From positions 806,001 through 870,000 of the forward strand of contig NZ_CP007201.1 in NCBI RefSeq assembly GCF_000568815.1: a stretch of DNA of 64,000 bases, written 5' to 3'. Source of the DNA: Sulfurospirillum multivorans DSM 12446 (GTDB taxonomy: Bacteria; Campylobacterota; Campylobacteria; Campylobacterales; Sulfurospirillaceae). Under the pieces are notes generated by a model, which worked only from the letters and a program-made list of their open reading frames with translations, was not told where the DNA came from and did not search any database. This document shows, piece by piece, positions 1,007 through 63,510 of the stretch (positions within the stretch are counted from its first letter, which is position 1; each line of letters starts with the position of its first letter). The position numbers and the translations under genes were made by a program.

Positions 1007-1042
1007 CCTTACATGTAACGTGAAATTTCTTTACATGTAAGG
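1007..1042 (+). terminator. hairpin built from two TTACATGTAA copies
   Basis: CCTTACATGTAA (1007-1018) and TTACATGTAAGG (1031-1042) form a perfect 12-bp inverted repeat with a 12-nt spacer, followed by TCTCTTTT. It begins 4 nt after the chemoreceptor stop and fits a rho-independent terminator. Each arm is also self-complementary, so alternative folds or protein binding are possible. Confidence 0.55.
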
Positions 1043-1063
1043 TCTCTTTTGAACTGTTTTTCC

Positions 1064-1090
1064 TTCATTTTTTTGAAGAATACCCGATAT
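1064..1090 (+). promoter_or_regulatory. possible sigma-28 (FliA) promoter
   Basis: CCCGATAT at 1083-1090 resembles the FliA -10 core (GCCGATAA in enterics, CGATWT in Campylobacter). The -35 region at 1064-1071 is a poor match. It lies about 38 nt before a FlxA-like gene, and flxA of E. coli is FliA-dependent. This is inference from a weak motif plus context. Confidence 0.35.
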
Positions 1091-1127
1091 GGTTAACGGG
1101 GGCAAATGAAAACTAAAGGAGATGGTC

Positions 1128-1631
1128 ATGAGCACCATTAACACATCGTATTCATCCCAAGTTCTGGTCGATCAAAATACCGCCAGTAGTAGTTCAGCAC
1201 TCTTAACTTCAACGAATGAAGAAGAAGACGAGAGTACAACCAGTTCGAGCAGTCTACCTGTAGACACCGTTGAAATTTCCGATGAAGCAAAAGCGTTAGC
1301 CGCATCCAGCAGTAACAGCTCAACGAGCACCAGCGAAGAGAGTTCAACTGAAAGTTCGACAACAAGTGAAAGTAGTAGCCAAAGCGGGGGCGCAAGTGCC
1401 ACTTCTGGAACCAGTAGTGCATCAACAAGTAGCAGTGACAGCATTGATGCACAAATCGAAGCGTTAGAGAAAAAAATTGCTGCACTCGAAAAAGAGATCG
1501 CAGCGGCACAACAAAAATCAAGTGGTGATGAAAAGAGTGCTCAAGATGTTCAGGCGAAACAAGCCATGGTCGCATCGTATCAAGCGCAAATTTCTACCCT
1601 TGAAACGCAGGCTGCTGAAACATCTGCCTAA
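1128..1631 (+). CDS. FlxA-like Ser/Thr-rich coiled-coil protein
   Basis: Protein of 167 aa. Residues ~10-105 are a low-complexity Ser/Thr/Glu stretch with a short ordered patch (VDTVEISDEAKALA). Residues ~107-165 form an alanine-, lysine- and glutamate-rich coiled coil (DAQIEALEKKIAALEKEI) like the FlxA family. No signal peptide or membrane segment is seen. An ATG at 1122 abuts the AAAGGAG ribosome site (1115-1121), so the second ATG at 1128 is preferred. Flagellar co-regulation is suggested by the FliA-like element upstream and by the family; the function is unknown. The skewed composition made a long antisense frame, which I regard as a shadow. Confidence 0.75.
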   Translation: MSTINTSYSSQVLVDQNTASSSSALLTSTNEEEDESTTSSSSLPVDTVEISDEAKALAASSSNSSTSTSEESSTESSTTSESSSQSGGASATSGTSSASTSSSDSIDAQIEALEKKIAALEKEIAAAQQKSSGDEKSAQDVQAKQAMVASYQAQISTLETQAAETSA

Positions 1632-1653
1632 AATCTCCCTGTTTGGCTTGGGC

Positions 1654-1689
1654 AAAAGCTTTACATGTAAGCTTACATGTAAAGCTTTT
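1654..1689 (+). terminator. perfect 36-bp palindrome with two TTACATGTAA copies
   Basis: Positions 1654-1689 are an exact palindrome centred between 1671 and 1672, running from AAAAGCTT to AAGCTTTT and containing TTACATGTAA at 1661 and 1673. As RNA it would make a 16-bp stem with a 4-nt loop and end in UUUU, a plausible terminator for the FlxA-like gene. It could equally be a dimeric protein-binding site. Confidence 0.55.
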
Positions 1690-1770
1690 AAGGCAACTCT
1701 TACACCCTCTTAAGTCCTCATTCGCTACAATAATCTCTTAATGAAAAAACTAAATTATTGATGAGAAACG

Positions 1771-7593: not shown

Positions 7594-8610
7594 TTAGCGT
7601 CCTATTTTAATTTCAAAACCTTTAGGATCTTCAAGTAAATTGATTTTACCACCATGCGCTTGAATAATCTGCAAAGAAAGAGCCAGTCCAAGCCCATTTC
7701 CCTTCGTTTTGGTCGTTTTGAAGGGTTCGAAAAGAATGTTTTTATTTTCAATAGGCTTGCCATCATCCTTTACATGTAAAAGAATAAACGCCTCATCTTC
7801 CACATACGCGATGCTGACTAAGCCACTCTCTTTTTCACACTCTTCAATCGCATCGATGGCATTAAAAATGAAGTTTTGAATGACCAAATTGAGAAGCTCA
7901 AAATCGGCTTTGATCTCGACGTGGGGTAGGTCAAACTGAAAGGTAACTTCTTTGGTGTACGAGTAGTGCGAGATGGCTTGTTCACACTCTTTAATCAAGC
8001 GATCCAGGTAAAAATAGCTGGGGTTGATCTGAACATTTTTAGTAAAAAGTAGGGTCGCTTTGATAATGCGCTCCACCCGCCAAATCGCTTTTTTGATCTC
8101 GGTCACAAGGGGCTTTACACTCGGATCGACTTTTTTAAGCAGCGTGGAAGCGAGCAGTGAAACCGAACCTATGGGGTTGCGGATTTCATGAGAGAGGTGT
8201 GCGGCGACTTGTCCCATGGAAACCAAGCGCTCTTGGCGTTTTCCCTCGGTGATGTCTGTGGCGGTAATGATCTTTTTATCGCTTTTGGTGACACCTTTAA
8301 TGAGGTAAGAGCGCCCTTCAAAATCGATCTCACTCTCCTCTTCAAGCACCAACCCTTCTAAGATCGCGCCCATTTTTTTCGCTTCGCTGTTTTGCAAAAA
8401 GATAGCACCATCACTGTCAAAAACCCAAAGCGCATTGGGCTGTACTTCGATGATCTGGCGAATAAAATCTTGCAAGGTGGTGTAGGATTCATTAAGCTTT
8501 TTGTACTCATCTTCAATGACATACGTTTGGTTGATCAGATCTTCAAGCCCTTGTTTAAAGAGCTCTTTTTCTTTAGCGCTGAGGCTGTTGAGCAAATTTT
8601 CATCAATCAT
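7594..8610 (-). CDS. flgS: cytoplasmic sensor histidine kinase, probable FlgS
   Basis: Protein of 338 aa without membrane segments. It has an N-terminal helical region (~1-45), a PAS-like domain (~46-125, IIEVQPNALWVFDSDG), a HisKA box with phospho-acceptor His in AAHLSHEIRNPIGS (~145), and a HATPase domain with N-box FIFNAIDAIEE and G2 box TKGNGLGLALSLQIIQAHGG. In Campylobacter and Helicobacter, FlgS phosphorylates FlgR to switch on sigma-54 flagellar genes. The soluble architecture and the divergent PLP-enzyme neighbour match the Campylobacter flgS locus as I remember it. It contains one TTACATGTAA (LHVK at 7770). A generic NtrB-like kinase is the alternative. Confidence 0.8.
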   Translation of the reverse strand: MIDENLLNSLSAKEKELFKQGLEDLINQTYVIEDEYKKLNESYTTLQDFIRQIIEVQPNALWVFDSDGAIFLQNSEAKKMGAILEGLVLEEESEIDFEGRSYLIKGVTKSDKKIITATDITEGKRQERLVSMGQVAAHLSHEIRNPIGSVSLLASTLLKKVDPSVKPLVTEIKKAIWRVERIIKATLLFTKNVQINPSYFYLDRLIKECEQAISHYSYTKEVTFQFDLPHVEIKADFELLNLVIQNFIFNAIDAIEECEKESGLVSIAYVEDEAFILLHVKDDGKPIENKNILFEPFKTTKTKGNGLGLALSLQIIQAHGGKINLLEDPKGFEIKIGR

Positions 8611-8666: not shown

Positions 8667-9938
8667 TTGGATAAAGTAGTGCAAGCCATACGCAAAAACA
8701 TCATTAAAGATAAAAATCTTCTCTATTTCGACTACACGGCGTCCGGTCAGGGCTATAAGCCGATTGAAAAACAGATGCAAATCCTTCTTAAAACCTATGC
8801 TAATACCCACTCTGAAGTGGCGTCAAGTGCGATTCAAACGAGTGCGTATTACGCTAAAGCACGTTGTGATTTGAAACATGCTTTAGCGGTGGATGAGCGT
8901 TTTTATCTTTTTCCGTGTGGCTCAGGTGCCACAGGGGCGATTAAAAAATTTCAAGAACTGATGGGGATTTACATTCCGCCTCGCACCTTAAAACGCTTTA
9001 CATGTAAACCCCAAACGCTTCCCGTTGTTTTTGTAGGCCCTTACGAGCACCACTCCAATGAGCTCAGTTTTCGAGAAGGGTTGTGTGAAGTGATTCGTGT
9101 GCCTTTGGATGAAGAGGAAAAGATCGATATGGCGTTTTTACAGACCCAGCTTGAGCTTCATAAAGAGCGTGAGATCATCGCTTCGTTTTCCGTTGCCTCC
9201 AATGTTACAGGCATCGTGAGCGATTACAAAAATATTTATACTCTCATCAAGCGCTACAACGGCATCTTGTGCCTTGACGCGGCGGCGGCTTCACCTTACA
9301 TTAACATTGATTGTAACTACTACGACGCACTTTTTCTCTCACCGCATAAGCTCTTGGGCGGGGTGGGATCGTGCGGGCTTTTAGTGATGAAAAAAGCGTT
9401 ATGCACCGAAGCCACACCCACCTTTGCAGGGGGTGGAACCGTTGGGTATGTGTCACGGGTTTCGCACACGTTTTTAAGTGACATGGAACTGATTGAAGAT
9501 GCTGGAACGCCTGCTATTTTGCAGTTTATCAAAGCCTCATTGGCGTACAACCTTCGCAACGAAATTGGTTTGGAGAAGATCCAAGCTGTGGAAGATGAGT
9601 TGAAATTTTATTTTGGTTCACGTGTTCGTTGTATCGAAGGGGTCAAGCTTTACTGCAAATATTCGCAAGAAAAGCTTCCCATTTTCTCTCTTAATTTTGA
9701 GGGGATCAATCCGTATGATATTTCGCAATACCTTTCGGATCATTTTGGAATTCAAACCAGAGCGGGATGCAGTTGCGCAGGGCCTTACGGACACGATCTT
9801 TTAAAACTAGCCGATGGTCAAGATTTTGATGAAAAGCCAGGTTGGCTGCGTATTTCTATCCATTACACGCATACGAGAAAAGAGATCGACACGCTTTTAA
9901 AAGCGATCAAACACGCCGTAGGTGCACTCAAAAAATAG
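8667..9938 (+). CDS. class V aminotransferase / cysteine desulfurase-like PLP enzyme
   Basis: Protein of up to 423 aa in the aminotransferase class V (NifS/SufS/Csd-like) family. It starts into NLLYFDYTASGQGYKPIEKQ, has a probable PLP-lysine segment FLSPHKLLGGVGSCG (~225-240), and a possible catalytic cysteine loop TRAGCSCAGPYG near residue 365. The first in-frame start is TTG at 8667. GTG at 8679 has slightly better leader spacing, and no early ATG exists. The substrate is uncertain. It is not in an isc/suf operon, so a specialised desulfurase or aminotransferase is likely. It carries one TTACATGTAA copy (FTCK at 8998). Confidence 0.82.
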   Translation: MDKVVQAIRKNIIKDKNLLYFDYTASGQGYKPIEKQMQILLKTYANTHSEVASSAIQTSAYYAKARCDLKHALAVDERFYLFPCGSGATGAIKKFQELMGIYIPPRTLKRFTCKPQTLPVVFVGPYEHHSNELSFREGLCEVIRVPLDEEEKIDMAFLQTQLELHKEREIIASFSVASNVTGIVSDYKNIYTLIKRYNGILCLDAAAASPYINIDCNYYDALFLSPHKLLGGVGSCGLLVMKKALCTEATPTFAGGGTVGYVSRVSHTFLSDMELIEDAGTPAILQFIKASLAYNLRNEIGLEKIQAVEDELKFYFGSRVRCIEGVKLYCKYSQEKLPIFSLNFEGINPYDISQYLSDHFGIQTRAGCSCAGPYGHDLLKLADGQDFDEKPGWLRISIHYTHTRKEIDTLLKAIKHAVGALKK

Positions 9939-9965
9939 CGTAAATCCTTTTACATGTAAAGCGAA

Positions 9966-14764: not shown

Positions 14765-15748
14765 ATGGAGTTTACATGTAAAGAGTCAAAAAGGCTCGAT
14801 GCCGCCATGAGCGAAGCGCTGGAATTACCACGCAATCAGGTCGAAAAACTGATTAAAAACGTCGGTGTCACGGTGGATGGAAAGCTGTGTACAAAGTGCA
14901 GTTTGAAGCTGGTAGAAGGCAATGTTGTGCATTACGAATTTGTAGAGGCACCGCAAAGCCCAAGCAGTTATGAGGTTGATTTTGATGTGCCAATCTTGTA
15001 TGAAGATGACGATCTTTTGGTGGTCAATAAACCGCCTTTTTTAACTGTGCATGGTGCACCCAGCGTCAAAGAGGCGACACTGGTCGATTGGCTCCAATGT
15101 AAGGGCATCAATCTCTCAACAATCAGCGGAGAAGAGCGCCATGGCATCGTGCATCGCATCGATAAAGAGACCAGTGGCGCGCTCGTGATTGCAAAAAACA
15201 ATGAAGCCCATTTAAGCCTTTCGTCTCAGCTGGAAGATAAAAGCATGGGTAGGTACTATCTTGCGATCATTGATCTACCCCTTAAAGATGACATCGTGGT
15301 AGAGCTGCCCATTGGACGCAGTGTGAACAATCGTCTTAAAATGGATGTCGCAAAACGGGATGGCCGAATGGCAAAAAGTGCGTTTACAAAACTCTTATTA
15401 TCGCGTGATAGCAAAAAAGAGCTGATTGCAGCAAAGCTGTTTACGGGGCGAACCCATCAGATCAGAGTGCACCTCCAAGCGCTCTGCCGCCACATCTTGG
15501 GCGATAGTTTATACGGCTTTAAGAGCCAAAATGGTACAATACCCAGAGTTATGTTACATGCTTATATTTTGTATCTAAAGCATCCAAAAACAGGGCAATT
15601 GTTGCAAATACATGCTCCCTTATGGGATGATTTTGATGCCTATTTAACACATCATTTCAGTAAGGACGAGGTCAATGAAAAAATTACTTTGGATAGCATC
15701 GTTAATGGTTTTAAGCTTAATGATCACTGGTTGCGAAAAGACGCTTGA
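14765..15748 (+). CDS. RluA-family 23S rRNA pseudouridine synthase (RluD-like)
   Basis: Protein of 327 aa. An S4 RNA-binding domain (~1-60, SKRLDAAMSEALELPRNQVEKLI) precedes the catalytic domain. The catalytic aspartate lies in HGIVHRIDKETSGALVIAK (~130-145), and the RTHQIRVHLQ motif is present. It converts specific uridines of 23S rRNA to pseudouridine; the exact target cannot be told from sequence. TTACATGTAA sits in codons 3-6 (FTCK), directly at the start. The 3' end overlaps the next gene by 74 nt in another frame. Confidence 0.92.
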   Translation: MEFTCKESKRLDAAMSEALELPRNQVEKLIKNVGVTVDGKLCTKCSLKLVEGNVVHYEFVEAPQSPSSYEVDFDVPILYEDDDLLVVNKPPFLTVHGAPSVKEATLVDWLQCKGINLSTISGEERHGIVHRIDKETSGALVIAKNNEAHLSLSSQLEDKSMGRYYLAIIDLPLKDDIVVELPIGRSVNNRLKMDVAKRDGRMAKSAFTKLLLSRDSKKELIAAKLFTGRTHQIRVHLQALCRHILGDSLYGFKSQNGTIPRVMLHAYILYLKHPKTGQLLQIHAPLWDDFDAYLTHHFSKDEVNEKITLDSIVNGFKLNDHWLRKDA

Positions 15749-16940: not shown

Positions 16941-18119
16941 ATGCCAAATTTTCATACCAAGACACTAAAACCTTTACAGTATCCTTGCACCTATAAAGAG
17001 ACCACATTTACGTATGAAGCCCGCTCAAAAAGGGGCAATACATTGGTGATGGCCTCGACGCAAGGGGAGCAGGTACTCATTCGAATTCAGCAAAAAGAAG
17101 ATGGAGTTTTGTTGGTCAAGGGCGATAAAGTCACCCGTCCAACTCAAGCCTCTTTTTTACAAAAAGTGTTGATTGATTTTCGTGATGCAAGTGAAGCTGA
17201 GGAGATTTTCTCCAACATTGAGCCTAAAAAGTTCTTACATGTAAAGCATTCGCCTTACCTCAAAGAGATTGAATTTTTTGCAAACCACTTTGATGCGAAG
17301 CGCGAAATTTGGGTCGAAGTTGGCTTTGGAAGCGGACGCCATCTGTTGCATCAAGCGAAGAAAAACCCTCATATCCAATTTATTGGACTGGAGATTCACA
17401 AGCCTTCCATCGAGCAAGTGTTAAAGCAGTGTGAGCTTCAAAATATTGACAATATTCTCGTGATTGATTACGATGCGAGGCTGTTTATGGAGTTTTTACC
17501 TTCCAATGTGGTGGGGCGCATTTTTGTGCATTTCCCCGTACCTTGGGATAAAAAACCACACCGTCGTGTCTTCTCGGCCGCGTTTATTGAAGAGGCGCTG
17601 CGTGTTTTACATGTAAACGCAACGTTGGAGCTTAGAACCGATAGTCCGCTCTATTTTGAGTTTACCTTTTCGCAGATGATGCAACTGAGCAAAGCGGATG
17701 TACATGTAAAGAAAAATGCCGAGTTAGAGATAACCAGTAAGTACGAAGATCGTTGGCGCAAAATGGAAAAAGATATCTACGATGTGATCTTAACCAATGA
17801 AATTGAGGCCGCACCGATCCCAAAACTGGGCAGATTGCACTTTGATGATGGGGTTGATTTTGCTAAAATTAGGGATGCTTTTAAAGACGAACTTCTGCGA
17901 GGTGAGGGCTTTTTTGTCCACTTTGAAGAGCTGTTTGAAATCGATGAAAAAAGTGGACTCATTCGCCTCTCTTTTGGTGCCAATGAACGTAATGAACGCT
18001 GTTTTATACAGATCCAAGAGGGAAAAGTTTCGTATCTTCCTGAGACAATTTTGGCAACGAAAAGTAATTTTTCTGCCCATACCTTAATTAAAGAGTGGTT
18101 TCATGGAATATGTGATTAA
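16941..18119 (+). CDS. trmB: tRNA (guanine-N7-)-methyltransferase
   Basis: Protein of 392 aa, long for TrmB (E. coli 239). The SAM-binding core lies in the middle: VEVGFGSGRHLLHQA (~132-146) and FIGLEIHKPSIEQVL, then IFVHFPVPWDKKPHRRVF (~193). An N-terminal extension of ~110 residues and a C-terminal extension of ~130 residues are as I recall for Campylobacterota orthologs. It methylates G46 of tRNAs. It holds two exact TTACATGTAA copies (LHVK, LHVN) and one near copy (VHVK). The end overlaps ftsE by 17 nt. Confidence 0.92.
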   Translation: MPNFHTKTLKPLQYPCTYKETTFTYEARSKRGNTLVMASTQGEQVLIRIQQKEDGVLLVKGDKVTRPTQASFLQKVLIDFRDASEAEEIFSNIEPKKFLHVKHSPYLKEIEFFANHFDAKREIWVEVGFGSGRHLLHQAKKNPHIQFIGLEIHKPSIEQVLKQCELQNIDNILVIDYDARLFMEFLPSNVVGRIFVHFPVPWDKKPHRRVFSAAFIEEALRVLHVNATLELRTDSPLYFEFTFSQMMQLSKADVHVKKNAELEITSKYEDRWRKMEKDIYDVILTNEIEAAPIPKLGRLHFDDGVDFAKIRDAFKDELLRGEGFFVHFEELFEIDEKSGLIRLSFGANERNERCFIQIQEGKVSYLPETILATKSNFSAHTLIKEWFHGICD

Positions 18120-46980: not shown

Positions 46981-47400
46981 CTAATCCTCCGTGCGAACAA
47001 TTAAACTCTTTGGTAAATGATACTGCATTATCCATGATGTTTCCATCTCACGCATCTGCCCGTTGTCCACTTCGTGATCAAAGCCTAAAAGATGCAACAT
47101 GCCGTGGATGAACAAAAGCGTGATCTCCTCTTCCACGCTGTGTCCCAACTCTTTGGCTTTTTGTGCTGCGAGCTCATGGTTAATAACGATGGAACCAAGA
47201 GGGGCGTGGGGAAAATCATCAATGGGGAAGCTTAGCACATCGGTGGTTTTATCCATCCCTCGATGCTCTAAATTGAGCTCTTGCATACTCTTTCCATCAA
47301 TGATCAAAAGCTCCACCTCTTTGGGCGTATGCTCCGTGCAAATCTGCTCTAAAATCTTTACATGTAAAGGAATGTTGAATTCGTTTTCAATAAGTAGCAT
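46981..47400 (-). CDS. ybeY: endoribonuclease YbeY
   Basis: Protein of 139 aa. The zinc-binding signature [14 protein letters not shown] is at ~95-108, and [11 protein letters not shown] is at ~55. YbeY takes part in 16S rRNA 3' processing and ribosome quality control. It carries one exact TTACATGTAA (LHVK near the N-terminus, 47358). AAAGGAG precedes the ATG. Confidence 0.95.
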
Positions 47401-47411: not shown

Positions 47412-48416
47412 TTAAAATAGGCTGGGTTGGGTGGTAAATGTTTTGATAAACAGTGGCTCGAACATCTCTTTATCGCCTAAAATCAGAGCGTATTGAAACG
47501 ATGTGTCGCCTAAGATGGCAAGCTCTTCGATAGATTCAAATAAGATCGTTCTCCCATTAAAGTCCAACGTTTCGTGAAAGGTTTTTGGCAAGCAGAGGAT
47601 CAAATGCGCAGAGTCAACTTGGCTTTGCAGATACGCTATCAAAGAGGGAACTAACGAAGGCGAAGGCTCAAAAATCAGCGCTTTATCACTGCTTCCAAAC
47701 TCTTTTTTGCACAGCGCATGGGTGATAAATTGAGGGTAAAAATGCTCACAAAAGCCAAGATGCTCCAAACTGTAGGTGATCTCATGGGTATCGCAAAAGC
47801 CAAGTAAACAGAGCAGCTCTTCGACAAAAAGAGAGGGAATTTTCTGTTCTGTGTAGTAGCGCTCGTTGTGTCCAAAAGAGCTGAGAAACAGCCCTTTTGC
47901 CATCACGTTAGGCTTTACATGTAAAGTGGTTTCAACGCTTTTGGAGGCGGGTGCAATGTGGTGTGCAAGGGTGGGATTGCTCAAGCAAAAACGCTCTTCT
48001 TCTTTCGCACCCAGAATGGTTTTAACGATGCCAAAAAGATCATTTCGCAGACGTTTGATACTGCGTGGCGTTTGAATCATCTCCAACAGTGATTCTTGCA
48101 CGGGAGAGAGCAGAAGGATGTCGAGTGATTTTTGGGTGATCGTGTAGCGTAAGAGTTTGATGAGAATCTGCTCAATGGAAGCGACTTCGATCCACGCGCA
48201 CTCTTCGTCTTCATTGGCAAACGGTAACGTCGTGACGATGGCGTAAGCGCCTTTTTCAAGCGCTTGGTGGATCAATTCACGTGACGCCGTGGTGTCGATG
48301 AAAAGATCGCCATGCGAGACGCGTGAAGATTCTAGCGTAATAGAAGCAAACGCATCAATGGGAGGCGTTGTTCGAAGCCTTCCATCAATGATGCGTACAA
48401 AGTTCTCTATCTTCAT
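47412..48416 (-). CDS. unknown protein with MurE/MurF-N-like domain
   Basis: Protein of 334 aa from ATG 48416 ([14 protein letters not shown]). An earlier in-frame start at 48551 lies inside metG and is disfavoured, since the metG stop and this start overlap as ATGA. Residues ~25-65 ([27 protein letters not shown]) resemble the N-terminal uridine-diphosphate-binding domain of Mur ligases. No P-loop ATPase motif (GTNGKT) follows, so it is not a working ligase. The rest is not recognised. I recall an equivalent gene next to metG in Campylobacter. One exact TTACATGTAA is present at 47915. Confidence 0.65.
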
Positions 48417-50581: not shown

Positions 50582-51410
50582 AACACTTCCGAACACGTTC
50601 TATCTCTGTTGTCGAGCCAAAGAAACACGGTGTCGTGTCGTGTGGATGCGAAGGGGTGAGATCAAGCACTCTTCCTTTGCCATCGATCGCTTCGCCACCT
50701 GCTTTTTCGTACACAAACGCAAAAGGGAAGACTTCAAAAATCATGCGGAGTTTGCCTTTGGGCACATCGCTTGTTGCAGGGTAAGAGAAAAGTCCGCCAC
50801 CTTTGAGAAGAATTTGATGCAAGTCTGGCACCATTCCACCCGAATAGCGTAAACGATACCCATCGGCAAAGATCGCATCAATCAAGGCTTTATGTTTAGG
50901 TTCCCAACACATTTGGGTTGAACCTGGCGCATTGAGTTTGCCTTTTTCTTTCAGCTTGATTGTTTGAATGAAGACAAATTCACCGTTTTTATTGAGGCGG
51001 TACATCTTAACATCTTCTTCTGCGATCACAAGTTCAACGCGAGGTCCATAGACGACATAGACAGCTGCTTTGAGATTAGCGCCTGCATAGCCACCCTCGT
51101 AGATGCCGAAGATAGAACCCACACTCAGATTTACATCGATGAGGCTTGAACCATCCAGCGGATCGTACCCCACACCGTAAATGCCGTTTACATGTAAAGG
51201 TGTTTTGTCTGCTTTTTCTTCGCTGACGATCTCTTTGATCGAAGCAACTTTGGCAAACTCCTCTTCGATGATGAGATCACTTTTGATGTCCAGTTTGAGT
51301 TGTGTGTCGCCTGTAGAGTTGATGTTTTCAGAATAGCCCGTATCATCAAACTCAATGGCTTCTCGAATGCGTATGGCGGAACGTTTTATAGCTTCGTAAA
51401 TTTCTTGCAT
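50574..51410 (-). CDS. fbp: class I fructose-1,6-bisphosphatase
   Basis: Protein of 278 aa, shorter than E. coli Fbp (332). The metal/catalytic motif is [22 protein letters not shown] (~85-106), and the sugar-phosphate region includes [14 protein letters not shown] (~185) and [17 protein letters not shown] (~240). It performs the irreversible gluconeogenic step, as needed for growth on organic acids such as lactate. It carries one exact TTACATGTAA (LHVN at 51188). mobB lies 1 nt upstream. Confidence 0.95.
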
Positions 51411-52495: not shown

Positions 52496-54074
52496 TCGAA
52501 ACATCTTCGCCTAAAAGATGGCGGTACACGACATAATTTGCCAGTACTTTTTTGCCGTACTCTCGACTCTCTTCGTTGATCATGCTCTCCATACTTAAAA
52601 ACGGCTCATACTCACCGTGTGAAAATGCCCCTGCTTGTAGATGTTTTTTGGTAAATCCCATACCGCCATTGTAAGCGTAAGCGATAAAAAGCGGGTGCAT
52701 GAGATTTCTCTCTAGAAAATTGAGATGAAGATTGGCAAAGAGATAGGCAACGCGGTGATCAAACATGGACGAAATATCAAAATCTTCTAGTTTCTCTTTT
52801 TTAGCAATGTCACGCGCTACAAAAGGCATAAACTGCATCATTCCAAGCGCATACGACGTCGAGACAACCGAGGGAATAAAACGGCTCTCTTGACGCGCGA
52901 TGGAGAGCATCAACGCTTGGCGATGGATGGAATAACTTGCAATCTCGTCAGGGTAGGGAATCGGGAAGTAGTTTTTGGTATAACGTGTGGCTCTCTCCAT
53001 CAAGTAGCTATAATGCGGCAACGTATTGGCGTATTTGAAGCTTTGCGCCAAGGTTTCAACCTCTTGGGAGCTCATAGAATAGACTTTATTCATCACCTTA
53101 ATCCATGCGAATGGATCGCTGACATTGAACGTGGGATGTGTGCCTTCTAAAACAGGCGAGACGATGTTTTGTAAAGGGCGATCCAGTTGTTCATAGGCAT
53201 ACAGTGAGTAGAGGTTGATGTCGCCATCTTGCACAATGCGCTCTAACAAACGAGCATCTTTGGTGACTAAATATTGCCAAAAGAGAGCTTTGTCTTTCTC
53301 TTCACTCCTCGTAGAGCGCTCAGCCGAAAGTTCAAAAAATGCCAGTGCTTGCGCTTTTTCATCGTATTTAAGGGCATTGAGTCCCATATAAAAGAGTGCT
53401 TTGGCGTTTACATGTAAAGAAGGGCTTACATGTAAAAGGGATCGTTGCACATTGTCTAGTTTATCGTTTTGCACGACATTGTAAGCAAGATAATTAAACC
53501 TTGAAGAGGTTGCGAGCCGATCCATCTGCTCTTTGGGGATGATCTGTTGGTTAAAGATAGCCGCTTTATACGCGGTGATACTACCGTTAAAAAGGGTTAA
53601 AAAAGTGTTGATATCGCTGTTGAGGGTGGCTTCATAGACGTTGTCACTCTCCATCAACGTGATAAGATTGACCAGCTCTTTGTTATGGGTAATGCGAGGT
53701 TTGATGAACGGGAGTTGCCCTTTTGAAAGCGAGGTCACTTTAGCGATATTGATGCCAATGTTGAGGCATTCATCATCTTCTTTCATCAAAGCAGTGACAT
53801 CAAGATTAATACACTTAGAAATTTTTTTATACTCAAGATTATCCATTTTTTTAGCAAAAAGGTGAAAAAATCGAATGTTCATCGTATGCACCATCCCAAA
53901 GAGCGCTTTGGCTTCTTTGGGAGTGGTCTCATCGCGTTGTAAATATTCGTAGATGTAAAAATCTTTTGCAAGACTTTGTGGTTTGTCTTCAAAAAAGGCA
54001 AAATTCACAGGCTCAGTCGCCAACAAATCTATGCAAAGGCAAAAGAAAAGGGCTAAAAAAAGTCTATAAAGCAT
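52437..54074 (-). CDS. slt: soluble lytic murein transglycosylase
   Basis: Protein of 545 aa. A signal peptide (MLYRLFLALFFCLCIDLLA) is followed by a long alpha-helical superhelix domain (~30-370) and a C-terminal SLT domain (~385-530) with catalytic Glu in LSIARQESRFIPSVVS and ALGMMQFMPFVA. It is a periplasmic exolytic muramidase. The start is ATG 54074, overlapping the yggT stop. Two exact TTACATGTAA copies lie 18 nt apart (53408, 53426), encoding LHVSPSLHVN. Confidence 0.92.
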   Translation of the reverse strand: MLYRLFLALFFCLCIDLLATEPVNFAFFEDKPQSLAKDFYIYEYLQRDETTPKEAKALFGMVHTMNIRFFHLFAKKMDNLEYKKISKCINLDVTALMKEDDECLNIGINIAKVTSLSKGQLPFIKPRITHNKELVNLITLMESDNVYEATLNSDINTFLTLFNGSITAYKAAIFNQQIIPKEQMDRLATSSRFNYLAYNVVQNDKLDNVQRSLLHVSPSLHVNAKALFYMGLNALKYDEKAQALAFFELSAERSTRSEEKDKALFWQYLVTKDARLLERIVQDGDINLYSLYAYEQLDRPLQNIVSPVLEGTHPTFNVSDPFAWIKVMNKVYSMSSQEVETLAQSFKYANTLPHYSYLMERATRYTKNYFPIPYPDEIASYSIHRQALMLSIARQESRFIPSVVSTSYALGMMQFMPFVARDIAKKEKLEDFDISSMFDHRVAYLFANLHLNFLERNLMHPLFIAYAYNGGMGFTKKHLQAGAFSHGEYEPFLSMESMINEESREYGKKVLANYVVYRHLLGEDVSIKNLFEMLLIPSVTDRFRN

Positions 54075-55532: not shown

Positions 55533-57777
55533 GCTTCAACTTCTCGCTCACAAGCTCATTGACCACCGTTGGGTTCGCTTTGCCACCACTGTTTTTAAGT
55601 ACTTGTCCCACAAAGAAGCCAAACAGATTCGTATTGCCTGCTTTAAACTTCGCCACATTGTCGGGGTTCTTTGCAATCACGTCATCAATAAAAGGCTGTA
55701 ATTTTTCAGGATCACTGATTTGGGTTAGTCCTTTGGCTTCAACGATTGCCGTTGGATTTTCACCTGTTTTTGCCATCTCTTCAAAGACTTGTTTCGCAAT
55801 TTTAGTGGAAATTGTTCCTTCATCAACCATCTTAACAAGTTCCGCTATTTGCTTTGCACAAAATTTTAATTCAGGTGTTTGTTTGAGCTCTCGTGCGACT
55901 TCGTTGGCGACGATGTTGGCGATGCTTACAGGGCTGTTTACATGTAAAAGTGTTTCCTCGTAAAAATGGGCTAGCCCAGCATCACGCGCCAAAATATTGG
56001 CTATTTCATGGTTAAGCCCAAGCTCTTTCGTGTAGGTATCAAAATGTGCCTGCTCCGATTCACTCATAGGGGCGACAACACCCTCAACGATAGAGGGCTT
56101 TTTAGCTTCAGGTCTTGGTGTAGATTGCGTTACTTCTGCCTTTTTAGCCCACGAGTCTTTGAGACCTACGATTTTATTAAAGACAGGCAAATCATCGGTG
56201 TAGTCAATCGGGTCAGCATAAAAATAGCCTTGTCTCTCAAATTGGAACCGAACATCGGGTTTTTCAGTGATGACAGCAGGTTCAACAAACGCATTTTTGA
56301 TGACATGTAAAGAATCAGGATTCAAATCTTCTAAGCCATCTGGTGCTTCGTTAGAATACAACCGCTCATACAGTCTGACTTCGACTTTTTTAGCATGTTT
56401 TGCACTGACCCAGTGAATGGCGCTTTTCGTTTTAATATTACTCGTGTCTTCGCCACTTTTTGAGTGAGGATGATACTCTGCTTTGAGTTCTATGATGGTA
56501 CCACTAGCATCTTTCACGACCTCTTTACATGTAAGAATATACGCATGTTTCAGACGCACGGATTGATCGGGTGTCAGACGGTAGTAATCTTGCGGAGGAT
56601 TTTCACTAAAGTCATCTCTCTCGATGTAAATTTCACGAGAGAAAGGAAGCTTACGTGAGCCCTCTTTGGGCACATCGTGTGGATAGTAAGAAGCGTCTAT
56701 CTCTTCTTCGCCCTCGTAGTTTTCGATGGTGACTTTAAGAGGGTCTAGGACACACATGACGCGTGGTACTTTGGTATTTAAATCATCTCGGATGCAAAAT
56801 TCAAGCTGTGCCACATCGACCATCGAGTTTGCTTTGGCGATGCCGATTTGATCGCAGAAGTTCAAGATGGATTCGGCTGTATAGCCTCTTCGTTTGTAGC
56901 CTGCGATGGTTGGAAGGCGCGGGTCATCCCAGCCATTGACATAATTGCCATTGACGAGTTCTAACAGTTTTCGTTTGCTCATCACCGTGTAGTTGATGCC
57001 CAGACGTGCAAACTCATGTTGGTAAGGACGAGGAGGGGTTAATTCTAGTGCGTCCAATACCCAGTCGTAAATATCACGGTTGTTTTCAAACTCAAGGGTA
57101 CAGATGGAGTGCGTTACGCCTTCGATGTAGTCGGACAAGCAGTGCGCAAAGTCATACATCGGGTAGATGCACCACTCATCTCCAGATCTGAAGTGATGGG
57201 CATGACGGATGCGATACAGTAGCGGATCGCGCATTTTCATATTCGCAGCACTCATATCGATTTTAGCGCGTAAAACGTGTTCACCATCTTTAAACTCACC
57301 CTTTTTCATACGCTCTAAAAGGTCTAAATTTTCTTCAATGCTACGTTCTGCAAATTGACTGCGGCGACCTGCTTCTTTGATCGTTCCACGGTATTCACGT
57401 ATCTCTTCTTCGTTCAAGCTATCCACATAGGCTTTGCCCATTGTGACAAGCGTCACAGCATACTCGTAAATTTTTGGGAAATAATCAGAAGCAAAGCGCA
57501 CGTGATCTGCCCAGTTAAACCCAAGCCATGTGACAGCATCTTTAAGCGCTTCAACGTATTTCATGTCTTCAGTCGTAGGATTAGTGTCATCCATTCGGAG
57601 GTTACAGTGCCCAGCATAATCGCGTGCAATGCCAAAATTGATACAGATAGATTTAGCATGTCCAATGTGCGGAAATCCATTAGGCTCTGGAGGAAATCTC
57701 GTAATGACTTCTTTATACTTTCCAGACTTTAAATCCTCTTCCACAATGGTGCGTAAAAAATCTTTGCTCTCACTCAT
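55525..57777 (-). CDS. glnS: glutaminyl-tRNA synthetase with C-terminal YqeY/GatB-type domain
   Basis: Protein of 750 aa versus ~550 for E. coli GlnRS. The catalytic part has FPPEPNGFPHIGHAKS (~27-42), LRMDDTNP, EFARLGINYTVMSKRKL (~270) and a beta-barrel anticodon region to ~555. A linker rich in Pro/Lys is followed at ~585-750 by a helical domain ending GGKANPTVVNELVSEKL, the tail found in YqeY and GatB. It directly makes Gln-tRNA-Gln. Most Campylobacterota, as I recall, lack GlnRS and use misacylation plus GatCAB. ATG 57777 is preferred over TTG 57786 because of AAAAGG at 57789-57794. Two exact TTACATGTAA copies are present. Confidence 0.93.
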   Translation of the reverse strand: MSESKDFLRTIVEEDLKSGKYKEVITRFPPEPNGFPHIGHAKSICINFGIARDYAGHCNLRMDDTNPTTEDMKYVEALKDAVTWLGFNWADHVRFASDYFPKIYEYAVTLVTMGKAYVDSLNEEEIREYRGTIKEAGRRSQFAERSIEENLDLLERMKKGEFKDGEHVLRAKIDMSAANMKMRDPLLYRIRHAHHFRSGDEWCIYPMYDFAHCLSDYIEGVTHSICTLEFENNRDIYDWVLDALELTPPRPYQHEFARLGINYTVMSKRKLLELVNGNYVNGWDDPRLPTIAGYKRRGYTAESILNFCDQIGIAKANSMVDVAQLEFCIRDDLNTKVPRVMCVLDPLKVTIENYEGEEEIDASYYPHDVPKEGSRKLPFSREIYIERDDFSENPPQDYYRLTPDQSVRLKHAYILTCKEVVKDASGTIIELKAEYHPHSKSGEDTSNIKTKSAIHWVSAKHAKKVEVRLYERLYSNEAPDGLEDLNPDSLHVIKNAFVEPAVITEKPDVRFQFERQGYFYADPIDYTDDLPVFNKIVGLKDSWAKKAEVTQSTPRPEAKKPSIVEGVVAPMSESEQAHFDTYTKELGLNHEIANILARDAGLAHFYEETLLHVNSPVSIANIVANEVARELKQTPELKFCAKQIAELVKMVDEGTISTKIAKQVFEEMAKTGENPTAIVEAKGLTQISDPEKLQPFIDDVIAKNPDNVAKFKAGNTNLFGFFVGQVLKNSGGKANPTVVNELVSEKLKHV

Positions 57778-58638: not shown

Positions 58639-58794
58639 ACCCTAGAGCTTTCACTAGATTATTACATTCAATTAAAATTAATAATTAGGAGGTTGTGAGT
58701 CTTTGGGTACAAGGTGCGGTTTTGCCTTGTATTGGGTCGAATAAGGCGTTGTTGTTTTACATGTAAAGCAACACAGAACATCAAAGGAGGAAAT

Positions 58795-60872: not shown

Positions 60873-60879
60873 AGTTTTA

Positions 60880-60908
60880 ACACCAAGAGAGTTTTCCTCT
60901 CTTGGTGT
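60880..60908 (+). terminator. strong hairpin after nrfA
   Basis: ACACCAAGAGAG (60880-60891) pairs perfectly with CTCTCTTGGTGT (60897-60908) around a 5-nt loop, 8 nt after the nrfA stop. A TTTTT run occurs only ten bases later, inside the adjoining MITE-like element. It is a probable terminator or mRNA-stabilising stem separating nrfHA from nrfI. Confidence 0.65.
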
Positions 60909-60909
60909 A

Positions 60910-61081
60910 TAATAGACTTTTTGCATAACCCATTGAAAGAAGAGTATCGCTTATAGCACATCACCTTTCAAAACTAAAAACATCGCCATAGCTTTGGCTA
61001 TGACTCAATTTTAAGTTTCAAAAATTAACGCACTCTAAGCAAACTCTTTATTTTTTCAAGAGTTATGCAAAAAGTCTAATA
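60910..61081. mobile_element. MITE-like element with terminal inverted repeats and TAATA duplication
   Basis: The ends GACTTTTTGCATAAC (60915-60929) and its exact inverse (61062-61076) are 15-bp perfect terminal repeats; similarity continues imperfectly inward (TTGAAA...AGAGT). The 162-bp element is flanked by a direct TAATA on each side (60910-60914, 61077-61081), consistent with a target duplication, although a TA duplication with 17-bp repeats is also possible. The interior has a CATAGC/GCTATG hairpin and no coding frame. A non-autonomous insertion sequence derivative is the best reading; the parent family is unknown. Confidence 0.6.
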
Positions 61082-61083
61082 TC

Positions 61084-61112
61084 CTTAAACTGCCATATTT
61101 TGGCATTTTAAG
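61084..61112 (+). other. hairpin in the nrfI leader
   Basis: CTTAAACTGCCA (61084-61095) faces TGGCATTTTAAG (61101-61112), 11 of 12 pairs, 23 nt before the nrfI GTG. It could be an attenuator, an RNA-processing site or a leftover of an older intergenic structure. Confidence 0.4.
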
Positions 61113-61134
61113 TGTGTTACTACAAAGGACAAAC

Positions 61135-63510
61135 GTGTTGCTCAAAGTTTTTGGCTCCTACAAAACAACGCTGATACTGCTCTTCTTTTTAGCCGTAGGT
61201 GCTGCGATTGCAACCTTTGTGGAAAATGACTTTGGCACAGCCGTTGCGCGTTATTATGTCTACAATGCCATCTGGTACGAAGCACTTTTGGTTCTTGCCG
61301 CAATTAACCTTGCTATCGCACTTTACCGCTCCAAAATGATTTTACATGTAAGCCGTTTTACTTTCCATGCGGCGTTTATTCTCATTCTTATAGGATCAGG
61401 TCTCACACGTTACTTTGGTGTGGATGGTGTGATGAAAATACGTGAAGGCTCAAGCTCCAATGTCATCTTTTCCAGTGAAAAAAACGCAGAGATCACGTTA
61501 CCGTTTGCGGTGCATCTGAATGACTTTGAATTAGAGCGCTATTACGGCAGTCGTTCACCTTCGGCGTATACCAGCGATGTTGAGGTGCGAGATGGCAACA
61601 CAACGCTGGGTGCGCAGATCTACATGAATCACACGCTCATCTACAAAGGGTATAAATTTTTTCAAACCTTTTACGACCCCGATGAAAAAGGCACGATTCT
61701 CTCCGTCACTAAAGACCCTGGTGTTGAAGTGACCTATGTGGGCTACGCGCTGCTTTTTTTAGGGCTTTTTTTAAATCTGTTTGATCCCAAATCGCGCTTT
61801 CGTAAACTCATCTCGGAGGTAAAAAGCAGTTCACTTCTCGTTGTTTTGGTGCTGTTGGTTCAAACGCCGTTATGGTGCGAGAGCGAATATGTGCAAACGT
61901 ATTTGCAAGAACACCAAAGTAAGAGCAAAGAGGTCAGTGACGCGTTTGGAAAACTGGTCGTGCAGTCGCGCATGGGGCGCATGAAGCCTTTTGATACGTT
62001 AAGCCAAGAGGTGCTTTATAAACTGAGCGGTAAAAATAGTCTGTACGAAATGGACGCGATGCAAGTGGCGCTTGGTATGCTCTCGCACCCCAGTGTGTGG
62101 AAGAATCTGCCGATGATTCAGACCAAAACGCCTAAGCTTCGAGAGTTCATCGGCATTGCGAAAGATCAAAAATTGGCAAGCTTTGAGGACTTTTTTGACG
62201 GGCATCGCTACAAACTAGACGCTGAGCTTCAAAAAGCGCTCGCGATGAAACCAAGTCAGCGCGGTACCTTTGAGAACGATCTGATCAAAGTCGATGAGCG
62301 CCTGAGCATCGCGTTTATGCTCTACCAAGGCGTACTCTTTAAAATCTTCCCACTGCCCCATGATGCTAACCACACATGGCTTGCCTTCGAGCAGATGTTT
62401 GCGCAATTAGAGGGCGTGGAAGCCGACAAAGTGCAAGAGAGCTCCACCGCATTTATCGAAGCACTGTTTGAGCGAAATTATGCCAAAGCACTTTTACATG
62501 TAAAGACCTTTTCGCAGTTTCAAAGCAACTATGGTGCTGAAATTATGCCCTCATCCACGCACATTCAGATCGAAATTCTCTACAACAAACTGATGCTTTT
62601 TGAGCGTTTAACGTTGGCGTACATATTTTTAGGTTTGGTACTTTTAGTCGTCGCGTTTGGACGCGTTTTTGCGCCTCAAACCTTTACATGTAAACTCGAC
62701 CGACCGCTGTTTTTCCTCGTGGCGACATTGTTTGTCGTGCATACCTGTGGACTCGCTTTAAGGTGGTACATCAGCGGACATGCGCCACTCAGCGATACGT
62801 ACGAATCCATCGTCTACATCGCGTGGTCGTGTCTGCTTTTTTGCATGCTCTTTTTGCGCCGTTCGCTCTTTGCGCTCTCGGGCTCGGTGATGATGGCAGG
62901 CATCTTTATGTTTGTCGCACATCTCGGGCACATTGACCCAGAGATCACCAACCTTGTGCCCGTTTTAAAATCCTTTTGGCTTAGTGTTCATGTCTCCATC
63001 ATCACGGCGAGTTATGGCTTTTTAGCGCTTGGCTGTGCGTTGGGACTGTTCACGCTCATCCTCTTTACATGTAAACGCTCAATCAAGATCGTTGCGACCA
63101 TCAAACACCTGAGCGCCATCAATGAAATCACCTTGATTTTAGGCTTGAGTCTTTTGGTCATCGGTAACTTTTTAGGCGGTATTTGGGCGAATGAATCGTG
63201 GGGGCGTTACTGGGGGTGGGATCCAAAAGAGACGTGGGCGTATATCTCCATTTTGGTCTACGCGATCATTTTACATGTAAGACTGGTGCCACGGTTTTAC
63301 TCACACTATCTCTTTGCGGTGTTCTCGCTTTTAGGCTTTGCGTCCATCTTGATGACCTACTTTGGTGTGAACTTTTACTTAGCGGGCATGCACTCTTACG
63401 CCACGGGCGATCCTGTGCCAATTCCCCTTTGGGTGTATGTGTGCAGTGGTGTGGTCGCATGTTTGATTATAATGTCGTATAAAAATAAAAATCTTAAGGA
63501 AGAAAAATGA
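61135..63510 (+). CDS. nrfI: CcsBA-type cytochrome c synthase, NrfI-like
   Basis: Protein of 791 aa, a natural fusion of ResB/CcsB (~1-270, four membrane segments around a periplasmic region) and CcsA (~495-791). The heme-handling tryptophan motif is WGRYWGWDPKETWAYIS (~690). It exports heme and ligates it to apocytochromes in the periplasm. Wolinella NrfI is the CcsBA form needed for the CXXCK heme of NrfA, and position after nrfHA supports that name. GTG 61135 has AAAGGA 5 nt upstream; the GTG at 61114 overlaps the hairpin. Five exact TTACATGTAA copies lie inside it, more than in any other gene here. The stop overlaps the next ATG. Confidence 0.92.
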   Translation: MLLKVFGSYKTTLILLFFLAVGAAIATFVENDFGTAVARYYVYNAIWYEALLVLAAINLAIALYRSKMILHVSRFTFHAAFILILIGSGLTRYFGVDGVMKIREGSSSNVIFSSEKNAEITLPFAVHLNDFELERYYGSRSPSAYTSDVEVRDGNTTLGAQIYMNHTLIYKGYKFFQTFYDPDEKGTILSVTKDPGVEVTYVGYALLFLGLFLNLFDPKSRFRKLISEVKSSSLLVVLVLLVQTPLWCESEYVQTYLQEHQSKSKEVSDAFGKLVVQSRMGRMKPFDTLSQEVLYKLSGKNSLYEMDAMQVALGMLSHPSVWKNLPMIQTKTPKLREFIGIAKDQKLASFEDFFDGHRYKLDAELQKALAMKPSQRGTFENDLIKVDERLSIAFMLYQGVLFKIFPLPHDANHTWLAFEQMFAQLEGVEADKVQESSTAFIEALFERNYAKALLHVKTFSQFQSNYGAEIMPSSTHIQIEILYNKLMLFERLTLAYIFLGLVLLVVAFGRVFAPQTFTCKLDRPLFFLVATLFVVHTCGLALRWYISGHAPLSDTYESIVYIAWSCLLFCMLFLRRSLFALSGSVMMAGIFMFVAHLGHIDPEITNLVPVLKSFWLSVHVSIITASYGFLALGCALGLFTLILFTCKRSIKIVATIKHLSAINEITLILGLSLLVIGNFLGGIWANESWGRYWGWDPKETWAYISILVYAIILHVRLVPRFYSHYLFAVFSLLGFASILMTYFGVNFYLAGMHSYATGDPVPIPLWVYVCSGVVACLIIMSYKNKNLKEEK

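Follow-up and report, generated by a model that had tools for sequence, protein, structure and literature searches.

A highly iterated palindrome of Sulfurospirillum genomes and its correlation with an orphan D12 adenine methyltransferase

The decamer TTACATGTAA was found to be a highly iterated palindrome (HIP) that is correlated with an orphan D12 adenine methyltransferase, a correlation that is new. Over evolution, TTACATGTAA is held mainly in species that keep this solitary methyltransferase. The chances are about even that persistence of the palindrome depends on this enzyme, which appears to be of the M.NlaIII/HpyI kind, in the manner proposed below, with the methylation and uptake steps included.

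Abundance and placement of the palindrome

The window, i.e., the whole 64-kb stretch of DNA that was analyzed, had a GC content of 42.4% (about 42% in the original prediction) and contained exactly 32 copies of TTACATGTAA at positions 1009 to 63280, where at least 32 had been claimed. The mean number of copies in 100 dinucleotide shuffles was 0.08 and the maximum was 2; a third-order Markov model gave 0.07 per strand. Because 32 copies were found versus 0.08 expected, the enrichment was approximately 400-fold. Strong enrichment had thus been recognized correctly, but its size, estimated at about 200-fold from 0.1-0.2 expected copies, was too low. The whole chromosome (3.18 Mb) carried 1484 copies of TTACATGTAA versus 2 of the reversed control, so the enrichment was not confined to the window. 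Among 20 further 20-kb stretches of the chromosome, 17 had 4-18 copies, one had 3 and two had none, both of the latter having been picked for lying in long gaps between copies. As for other HIPs, the palindrome was over-represented genome-wide beyond composition, as judged by shuffles, the Markov model and the reversed control.

These counts refuted ordinary compositional bias, a transcription factor regulon and a mobile repeat, and the probability left to them is practically negligible, even though some intergenic copies formed terminator-like hairpins. The runner-up palindromic 10-mer in the window, TTTTGCAAAA, had 4 copies, and no other came near TTACATGTAA. According to crude ORF calls in a 424-kb sample, 133 of 202 copies were intragenic. 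The sequence common to the copies was only 10-14 bp long, and the two sampled stretches with transposases contained no copies, in agreement with the earlier view that the palindrome is not a mobile repeat. The core ACATGT had also been noted as a type II restriction site. However, avoidance of ACATGT, sought in the window's own genome (G000), was absent: ACATGT occurred 2177 times versus 506 for TGTACA. Because the hexamer was enriched rather than avoided, its status as a restriction site fails to explain the pattern. Literature searches found no report of the motif in Campylobacterota, consistent with the earlier statement that no role had been described.

The copies had been placed in genes on both strands. 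Strand is meaningless here, the site and its reverse complement being identical, and crude ORF calls put 7 of the 32 copies in the window and 69 of the 202 in the 424-kb sample in intergenic DNA. Hereafter, fractions in brackets give the aligned species with a methyltransferase ortholog in which the site was intact. The intergenic copies in the window were a hairpin pair at 1009..1018 (7/7) and 1031..1040 (6/7), 22 bp apart; a long hairpin (z -4.35) formed by 1661..1670 (7/7) and 1673..1682 (6/7), 12 bp apart; and copies at 9950..9959 (5/5), 36903..36912 (0/1) and 46386..46395, the last with convergent ORFs on either side. Copies within ORFs were located at 7770..7779 (ORF 7594-8610; 9/10), 8998..9007 (ORF 8667-9938; 9/10), 14772..14781 (ORF 13600-14835, a crude call; 8/8), 17235..17244 and 17607..17616 (ORF 16941-18119; 5/8 and 7/8, respectively), 24997..25006 (ORF 23994-25205; 0/1), 28339..28348 (ORF 27914-28627; 1/1), 33053..33062 (ORF 32639-33517; 1/1), 34642..34651 and 34921..34930 (ORF 33502-35055; 1/1 each) and 41186..41195 (ORF 41035-41607; 1/1). 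They were also located at 44405..44414 (ORF 44086-44586, a crude call), 47358..47367 (ORF 46981-47400), 47915..47924 (ORF 47412-48551, a crude call), 51188..51197 (ORF 50574-51410), 53408..53417 and 53426..53435 (a close pair 18 bp apart in ORF 52437-54116), and 55938..55947 and 56525..56534 (ORF 55525-57786). The copy at 58757..58766 was close to the start of ORF 58714-59328, whose start codon is unsure, and ORF 61114-63510 contained copies at 61342..61351, 62494..62503, 62684..62693, 63065..63074 and 63271..63280. Intergenic copies were concentrated at the 3' ends of genes, often as hairpin pairs. Uptake sequences likewise accumulate between genes close to gene ends, where many form paired hairpins.

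The orphan methyltransferase and its distribution

The methyltransferase gene lies outside the window, with a response regulator gene and a transglutaminase-like gene as neighbors, and its product matched PF02086 with an E value of 2.3e-41. At this locus, eight restriction-modification queries gave no match, and no ICEA endonuclease gene was found within the 12 kb examined (L073). Relatives of the methyltransferase, e.g., in G049 and Helicobacter, adjoin ICEA (PF05315) endonucleases of the IceA/NlaIII type, and for this reason its expected target is CATG, the center of the motif. The gene hpyIM, which adjoins iceA, is given as a CATG methyltransferase in the relevant passages of two papers (PMC13340068, PMC4450513), and CATG was depleted beside a gene of the methyltransferase family in Bacteroidota. 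The ICEA partners, hpyIM and this depletion together point to CATG as the probable specificity of the family. The enzyme resembles those of the NlaIII and IceA1-HpyI (CATG) systems through the gene neighborhoods of its relatives. Unlike in those systems, its own gene had no ICEA endonuclease within the 12 kb, and the CATG-centered decamer was enriched rather than avoided.

All 24 Sulfurospirillum genomes searched were enriched in TTACATGTAA, with 49-1496 copies each. An ortholog of the orphan gene was present in 15 of them (as two fragments in G378); these genomes had 869-1496 copies versus 49-934 in the nine without it. Eight ortholog-less genomes were checked, and six (G116, G149, G276, G078, G330 and G231) had the neighboring gene. 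In these six, the flanking genes were kept and the enzyme alone was missing, and 49-605 copies were found together with many one-base relics. In G171, neither a D12 match nor the neighboring transglutaminase-like gene was detected. Within Sulfurospirillum, the motif thus tracked the orphan methyltransferase, as HIPs do, with exceptions in G171 and in other families. The exceptions went both ways: G171 had sites without a detected gene, and G034 and G049 had the enzyme without enrichment. A dnaE tree provided only four supported independent pairs, of which three differed in the expected direction, none in the opposite direction and one not at all (p 0.25).

Outside Sulfurospirillum, enrichment was patchy in one other family, some Sulfurimonas-type genomes being rich, and the flanks around ACATGT formed "dialects" in relatives. 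The ACATGT/TGTACA ratio was compared with the presence of the enzyme family in 80 genomes at a threshold of 1.3. Of the 41 genomes without the family, 16 reached a ratio of at least 1.3 (including G125, G299, G091, G257 and G300); of the 39 with it, 5 stayed below that value (including G034 and G049). Among 36 Sulfurimonas-type genomes, ACATGT was enriched in 5 of 8 with the family and in 4 of 28 without it. This imperfect association across families, as well as the sites kept in G171 without a detected enzyme, is what would be expected if motif and enzyme were lost jointly with an uptake or binding factor, the enzyme itself being inactive on the motif. Such a passenger role is nevertheless very improbable, considering that CATG, the core target expected for the enzyme family, coincides with the motif center and that the gene was lost cleanly while its neighbors remained. 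Moreover, the highest ACATGT/TGTACA ratios were those of G149 and G276 (6.2 and 6.5), both of which carry another member of the enzyme family; the motif flanks were looser in G149, the one of the two that was sampled.

Retention and decay of sites

At approximately 80% identity, 258 of 301 site comparisons were intact in species with the enzyme versus 67.6 expected, and 39 of 141 in species without it versus 29.0 expected. Between G203 and G000, 15 of 15 sites were kept, as compared with 2 of 15 between G203 and G116 (Fisher p 1.8e-6). Decay was near neutral in four ortholog-less species (G116, G078, G149 and G276) and partial or little in two others: G231, which lost the gene and kept 15 of 25 sites, and G171, which had 934 copies, no detected enzyme and 18 of 22 site comparisons kept. 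The site at 14772..14781 was altered in G116, G078, G149, G276 and G171 and intact in G231. One-base relics of TTACATGTAA rise after enzyme loss: one-offs versus exact copies numbered 275 versus 49 in G078, 396 versus 238 in G116 and 354 versus 1484 in G000, the one-off background from the reversed control being 119, 89 and 115, respectively.

The protected footprint was 10 bp long, with divergence approximately 7-fold below that of the flanks. Such a footprint would suit a nucleoid, segregation or regulatory protein that binds the decamer, perhaps only when methylated, with selection keeping each site. Close pairs clustered at 20-23 bp, a distance of two helical turns that was seen in 9 of 190 spacings, and this would suit it as well. 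However, the overall spacing was no more even than random (CV 1.15 versus 1.01), no ori-ter trend in density was evident by inspection of 21 sampled places, and selection at each of about 1500 mostly intragenic sites would be hard to explain by structure alone. A role in chromosome structure or epigenetic control is therefore considered quite unlikely.

It is also unlikely that the sites are maintained by DNA repair along the lines proposed for cyanobacterial HIP1, in which the methyltransferase would mark the site and methyl-directed mismatch repair would create and protect it. This explanation draws on the shared anatomy, a long palindrome whose interior holds the site expected for an orphan methyltransferase; on one-base variants being enriched mainly at the outermost position, as described for HIP1 in the part of PMC4390886 concerned; and on MutS1, found in 29 of 32 genomes. 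On the other hand, MutL (PF01119) was found in 0 of 31 genomes, whereas 11 of 14 control genomes gave a match. MutL is taken here as required by the Elhai model, which makes it a feature of that proposed model lying outside the definition of HIPs. In addition, the window's own genome, second among the 24 Sulfurospirillum genomes in TTACATGTAA copy number, had a split mutS.

Likeness to known systems and proposed role

Like HIP1 (GCGATCGC) and the alternate HIPs of cyanobacteria, TTACATGTAA is iterated across genes and intergenic DNA and extends beyond the site expected for the orphan methyltransferase with which it is correlated. It differs from HIP1 in its CATG core, AT-rich decamer and phylum, in the lack of MutL for the proposed repair model, in the hairpin pairs at gene ends and in the near-neutral decay seen after gene loss. 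The Neisseria DUS and Pasteurellaceae USS occur about once per 2 kb, with a 3'-end bias, inverted pairs folding as hairpins and dialects between relatives. TTACATGTAA shares all of these features, being a hugely over-represented motif of the 10-12 bp class with hairpin pairs at 3' ends. Unlike DUS and USS, it is a perfect palindrome tied to a methyltransferase, and its preference in uptake is presumed. Uptake signals are not known to be palindromic, which counts against such a role for TTACATGTAA.

The association of motif and enzyme suggests that the motif serves as a methylated "self" tag, by which a species might recognize its own DNA during uptake. According to the proposed mechanism, the orphan enzyme would methylate TTACATGTAA at CATG (C-m6A-TG), and another factor, most likely the DNA uptake machinery of natural transformation, would read the methylated decamer; the sites would therefore be kept in place because uptake and recombination would favor self DNA. 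Should methylation target only CATG, a second reader would be required for the remaining six positions of the motif, and none was found. ComEC (PF03772), the sole uptake component searched, was present in 32 of 32 genomes and does not discriminate because it occurs also where the enzyme was lost. In Campylobacter jejuni, DNA uptake is described as methylation-dependent in the relevant part of PMC8468864, and the RAATTY enzyme appears in the corresponding part of PMC4294202 as a D12 methyltransferase. There, CtsM is catalogued as a methyltransferase only, and RAATTY is frequent by itself (approximately 27,500 sites). CtsM/RAATTY belongs to the same phylum and combines a short palindromic target with a D12-class adenine methyltransferase, the likeness to the orphan enzyme with its PF02086 match being one at class level; RAATTY, which is naturally frequent, and the motif enriched here differ in sequence.

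The proposed system would parallel Neisseria DUS, Haemophilus USS and CtsM-RAATTY, as a palindromic signal gated by methylation. Somewhat more tentatively, TTACATGTAA could be an uptake or self-recognition signal active only once a domesticated CATG methyltransferase has methylated it. This would add a third design to uptake signals that act by sequence alone (DUS/USS) and to the methylation of a short site that is common anyway (CtsM). The likeness to HIP1 and the idea of a methylation or uptake signal in the original prediction proved useful as leads, since the motif tracks a methyltransferase, its sites are protected mainly in the presence of the enzyme and hairpins often stand at 3' ends; methylation and uptake themselves are reached by inference.

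What highly iterated palindromes do has been an open question since HIP1. Several natural gene losses are available here in one genus: most sites decay at a near-neutral rate without the orphan methyltransferase and are held at each place when it is present. Decay after loss, together with retention in the presence of the enzyme, therefore makes the question of HIP function testable. If the proposed role is true, a changed or lost enzyme would lead to a changed dialect or to the decay of hundreds of sites. TTACATGTAA may thus link HIPs with uptake sequences and methylation-gated transformation in Campylobacterota.

Abundance and placement of the palindrome

The original prediction had claimed at least 32 exact copies of TTACATGTAA in the window; exactly 32 were counted, versus 0.08 expected from shuffled sequence. 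It would have been refuted if other AT-rich palindromic 10-mers had been equally common or if the enrichment had been limited to the window. Neither was the case: no other palindromic 10-mer in the window exceeded 4 copies, and the whole genome (one contig of 3,175,729 bp) contained 1484 copies of the motif and 2 of the reversed string. In a 464-kb sample comprising the window and 20 stretches of 20 kb, 209 copies were found, where a third-order Markov model predicted 0.62. The outermost base was the main place of one-base variants in this sample (T to C, 42-fold; T to G, 16-fold; T to A, 2.7-fold). Variants of the second base were weakly enriched (0- to 4.5-fold), and those of the inner six bases were near chance (0- to 2.7-fold, with small counts). 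The symmetrised flank consensus was CTTTACATGTAAAG, followed by a weak A/T-rich stretch. Two 20-kb stretches of 32-35% GC (L031 and L032), picked from long gaps between copies, contained no copies; one harbored TraG-like, DUF5906/VapE-like and transposase genes, and the other harbored transposases around a molybdopterin oxidoreductase gene.

Crude ORF calls on 424 kb placed 133 copies in genes and 69 in the 9.6% of the DNA that was non-coding. The genic copies were found in frame 0 (88), frame 1 (41) and frame 2 (4); in frame 2 the motif holds a stop codon, and the four copies were the gene's own stop or calling errors. The favoured genic frame, TTA CAT GTA, encodes Leu-His-Val, a tripeptide that recurs in unrelated proteins. 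Intergenic copies were distributed at 5.0 per kb between convergent, 1.9 between tandem and 0.9 between divergent genes, and 31 of the 40 tandem copies were nearer the upstream stop. Spacings below 25 bp numbered 11 of 190 versus 2.7 expected, and 9 of them were 20-23 bp. Spacing more even than random, which would be expected for a repair or uptake ruler, was not seen. In DUS and USS, too, paired copies at the ends of genes fold into hairpins. Here, all six hand-picked close pairs folded into hairpins (z -3.0 to -8.3), and the pair 1661/1673 persisted in three genomes without the methyltransferase described below (G149, G276 and G078), which would fit an additional role as a terminator.

The wider survey sampled 398 of a larger group of genomes of the order. 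Every one of the 24 Sulfurospirillum genomes contained the motif (49-1496 copies), and the other 20 genomes of its family contained 6-733 copies. A rich minority was found in a Sulfurimonas-type family (G102, 367; G377, 354; G125, 340; G299, 194; G180, 96; G335, 77; G158, 48; G201, 31), and all remaining families among the 398 genomes had at most 11 copies per genome. Samples of 12-62 kb were taken for 21 genomes; TACATGTA was the top palindromic 8-mer in 17 (G000, which is S. multivorans, G180, G335, G127, G222, G102, G125, G149, G171, G377, G240, G384, G201, G091, G282, G300 and, weakly, G078) and was not the top one in G034, G037, G049 and G158. The flanks varied between genomes (CTTTACATGTAAAG; CTTACATGTAAGC; CTACATGTAGAG; TACATGTAAAT) and were looser in G149 and G180. 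We call these flank variants dialects, a naming that rests on small samples.

An orphan D12-class methyltransferase

Beta-class methyltransferases (PF01555), which matched in 29 of 63 genomes, were rejected as the cause because they were absent from S. multivorans and from many motif-rich genomes. A D12-class methyltransferase (PF02086) of about 330 aa was present in most motif-rich genomes; in the grouping of D12 proteins, 8 of 40 that fell outside the main group were left out. The S. multivorans enzyme (327 aa) is encoded on the minus strand at G000:C1:2827669-2828649 (L073:5669-6649). Two other D12 genes of this genome, near 1.73 and 3.01 Mb, were set aside as candidates. One was 22.9% identical to the orphan enzyme, the other had no BLAST match to it at 1e-3, and among the 56 genomes searched, no other Sulfurospirillum genome had a match as strong as these genes (over 200 bits). 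The ortholog was found in 11 Sulfurospirillum genomes including S. multivorans, the others being 61-94% identical to its enzyme. Each of these 11 loci had at least one neighbouring gene in common with the S. multivorans locus, and eight restriction-modification protein queries gave no match there.

In the S. multivorans enzyme, FAGSG and DPPY were intact; their columns were invariant in a 22-sequence alignment, except for the A (nearly invariant) and the S of FAGSG. Against NCBIfam, the methyltransferases had only sub-threshold matches, and a sequence search of the PDB found no relative. An AlphaFold model (pLDDT 86) predicted a SAM-dependent methyltransferase fold. Its best Foldseek match was the RNA-cap methyltransferase domain of human TGS1, and E. 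coli Dam and DpnM followed closely in the ranking, all of them at TM 0.35-0.43 by query length; the comparison of this predicted structure adds little. A small ORF (L073:5309-5638), lysine-rich and beginning with a signal-like stretch, directly follows the methyltransferase gene in several genomes, stays where the enzyme was lost and has no Pfam match. Only 4 motif copies were counted over 39.9 kb of the S. diekertiae plasmid pSDCE1, on which a second D12 methyltransferase gene of the same group (L283:1692-2732) adjoins IS21 genes.

The target of the enzyme was approached through its relatives. Methyltransferases of the same group adjoined ICEA proteins (PF05315) on a Helicobacter contig (E 1.9e-121) and in G049 (E 2.9e-79), and 17 of the 160 loci searched matched the ICEA protein of locus L157. 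PMC13340068 and PMC4450513 describe an NlaIII-like system made up of iceA1 and its neighbour hpyIM, the latter encoding a CATG methyltransferase; the link to hpyIM is drawn here from the ICEA neighbourhood. In loci L105, L098 and L100, the same group adjoined AccI-type, EcoRII-C-type (at the cut-off) and BpuJI-type endonuclease genes, with further methyltransferase genes nearby. Near the Bacteroidota enzyme genes, CATG was counted 218 times versus 400 for GTAC in 34 flavobacterial loci and 85 versus 219 in 16 others, a depletion expected where CATG is cut. Extension of the motif to Bacteroidota was rejected, as ACATGT was not enriched near the enzyme and CATG was depleted there.

CATG forms the centre of TTACATGTAA. 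Outside the motif, it occurred at 0.64 of the Markov expectation in S. multivorans and at 0.68 and 0.76 in G078 and G116, which lack the enzyme. Because CATG was also below expectation without the enzyme, this says only that the decamer, not CATG, is favoured. We infer that the S. multivorans enzyme methylates CATG, or the decamer.

Natural losses of the enzyme and the fate of sites

The ortholog was searched for in 80 genomes, namely all 44 of the Sulfurospirillum family and 36 of the 45 of the Sulfurimonas-type family. Among the Sulfurospirillum genomes, 15 of 24 had it (57-100% identity; fragments in G378). These 15 contained 869-1496 motif copies versus 49-934 in the nine without it (Mann-Whitney p 9e-5, uncorrected for kinship). 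Two of the nine were incomplete MAGs (G318, 840 copies; G360, 608), and the clearest overlap between the groups was G171, with 934 copies. A neighbouring transglutaminase-like gene was sought in 13 genomes, eight of them without the ortholog, and was found in six of these eight (G116, G078, G149, G276, G330 and G231). All six kept the response-regulator gene, the lysine-rich, exported-looking ORF and the transglutaminase-like gene; the methyltransferase gene between them was absent. The transglutaminase-like gene was not found in G171 or in G257, which belongs to another genus; the G171 locus is therefore absent, rearranged or not in the assembly. A dnaE tree of 30 genomes gave five changes of state for the ortholog. 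With "rich" set at 800 copies, three of four well-supported independent pairs agreed with the motif and one showed no difference (p 0.25), so phylogeny alone is suggestive, not decisive.

One-offs were counted as matches with up to one mismatch minus exact copies; the reversed control gave 58-137 in these genomes. Without the enzyme, the counts of one-offs to exact copies were 275/49 in G078, 370/168 in G330, 396/238 in G116, 596/412 in G231, 673/411 in G149 and 483/605 in G276. With the enzyme, they were 354/1484 in S. multivorans, 268/1220 in G020 and 361/1056 in G160. G171, with 358 one-offs to 934 exact copies, was nearer the enzyme-bearing group. Exact copies become one-offs after loss of the enzyme.

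Sites of five enzyme-bearing species were also followed into other species in orthologous stretches around dnaE, and expected retention was taken from control 10-mers of the same GC. Alignments of fewer than 300 bases and comparisons with fewer than three sites (all those with G330 and G127 and a few others) were left out. In these non-independent comparisons, with sites and species in common, 258 of 301 sites were intact versus 67.6 expected in enzyme-bearing species at about 80% identity, 28 of 30 versus 19.0 at about 90% and 9 of 10 versus 7.5 at about 95%. Without the enzyme, 39 of 141 were intact versus 29.0 expected in the 80% bin (G171, 4/4; G231, 12/19; G116, G078, G149 and G276 together, 23/118) and 25 of 62 versus 6.2 in the 70% bin (G171, 14/18; G231, 3/6; G149 and G276 together, 8/38). 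Of the G203 sites, 15/15 were kept in S. multivorans (82.6% identity) versus 2/15 in the enzyme-less G116 (84.6%; Fisher p 1.8e-6); of the S. multivorans sites, 15/17 were kept in G203 and 2/15 in G116.

Per-position identity was compared between nine enzyme-bearing species (excluding G052, G264 and three very close pairs) and four enzyme-less species (G116, G078, G149 and G276, excluding G171, G231 and G330). G171 and G231, both counted in the dnaE tracking, keep more sites than these four. In enzyme-bearing pairs, identity was 0.94-0.97 within the motif and 0.62-0.87 outside it (average about 0.75); in the four enzyme-less species, it was 0.70-0.79 within the motif. The divergence ratio was 0.14, with flanks taken as 0.73, which under a simple model would correspond to scaled selection of about 3 per site. 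It is quite probable that the motif depends on the enzyme itself.

Repair, uptake and exceptions

Methyl-directed repair of the MutL type is, according to PMC4390886, the kind of model proposed for HIP1. In its MutL-dependent form, it was rejected because a search of 31 genomes found no MutL. The argument that MutS1 is missing too was dropped, since MutS1 was present in 29 of 32 genomes. Also against repair, mutS of S. multivorans (G000:C1:783274-786238; L305:1274-4238), about 20 kb before the window, was broken into two ORFs (877 and 117 aa). The mutS ORF was shortened in G138 (912 aa), and other Sulfurospirillum genomes with a match had one open frame of 979-989 aa.

All 32 genomes searched had ComEC, whether or not they had the enzyme; uptake is therefore allowed, but ComEC does not discriminate. 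In C. jejuni, methylation of a motif by CtsM is described as needed for DNA uptake (PMC8468864), and the RAATTY enzyme is described as D12 class (PMC4294202). Each site would be held by drive if self DNA were preferentially taken up and recombined, and this drive would stop once the methyl mark was lost. Such maintenance through uptake of self DNA appears to be the best of the readings, with a chance that we put slightly short of even.

A clean association of enzyme and motif across all genomes was rejected because of exceptions both ways. Among the 80 genomes, the ACATGT/TGTACA ratio reached at least 1.3 in 34 of the 39 that had the enzyme family and in 16 of the 41 that did not. The Sulfurimonas-type family alone gave 5 of 8 versus 4 of 28 (Fisher p 0.013). 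By the same ratio, no association was found in the Sulfurospirillum family (29 of 31 versus 12 of 13), in which copy numbers differed only weakly by enzyme family (p 0.046). ACATGT was abundant in G125, G299, G091, G257 and G300, which have no close relative of the enzyme, and the enzyme family was present without ACATGT enrichment in G034 and G049. These exceptions could reflect losses long ago, the action of other methyltransferases or a separate reader. G149 and G276 had the top ratios of the 80 genomes (6.2 and 6.5), comparatively few full decamers and another member of the enzyme family (about 50% identity), which looks like a dialect change after enzyme replacement. These ratios and the looser flanks of G149 suggest that the dialect depends on the type of enzyme or on a partner.

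In the open-licence literature, no report of the motif, or of any highly iterated palindrome, was found for Campylobacterota, and nothing on the motif was found under Sulfurospirillum palindromes or methylomes, or under HIP or uptake sequences in the phylum. Judged by their titles, 18 papers that contain the string of motif letters were unrelated. The motif belongs to a known kind, that of HIPs or uptake signals, with a proposed genetic cause that can be tested.
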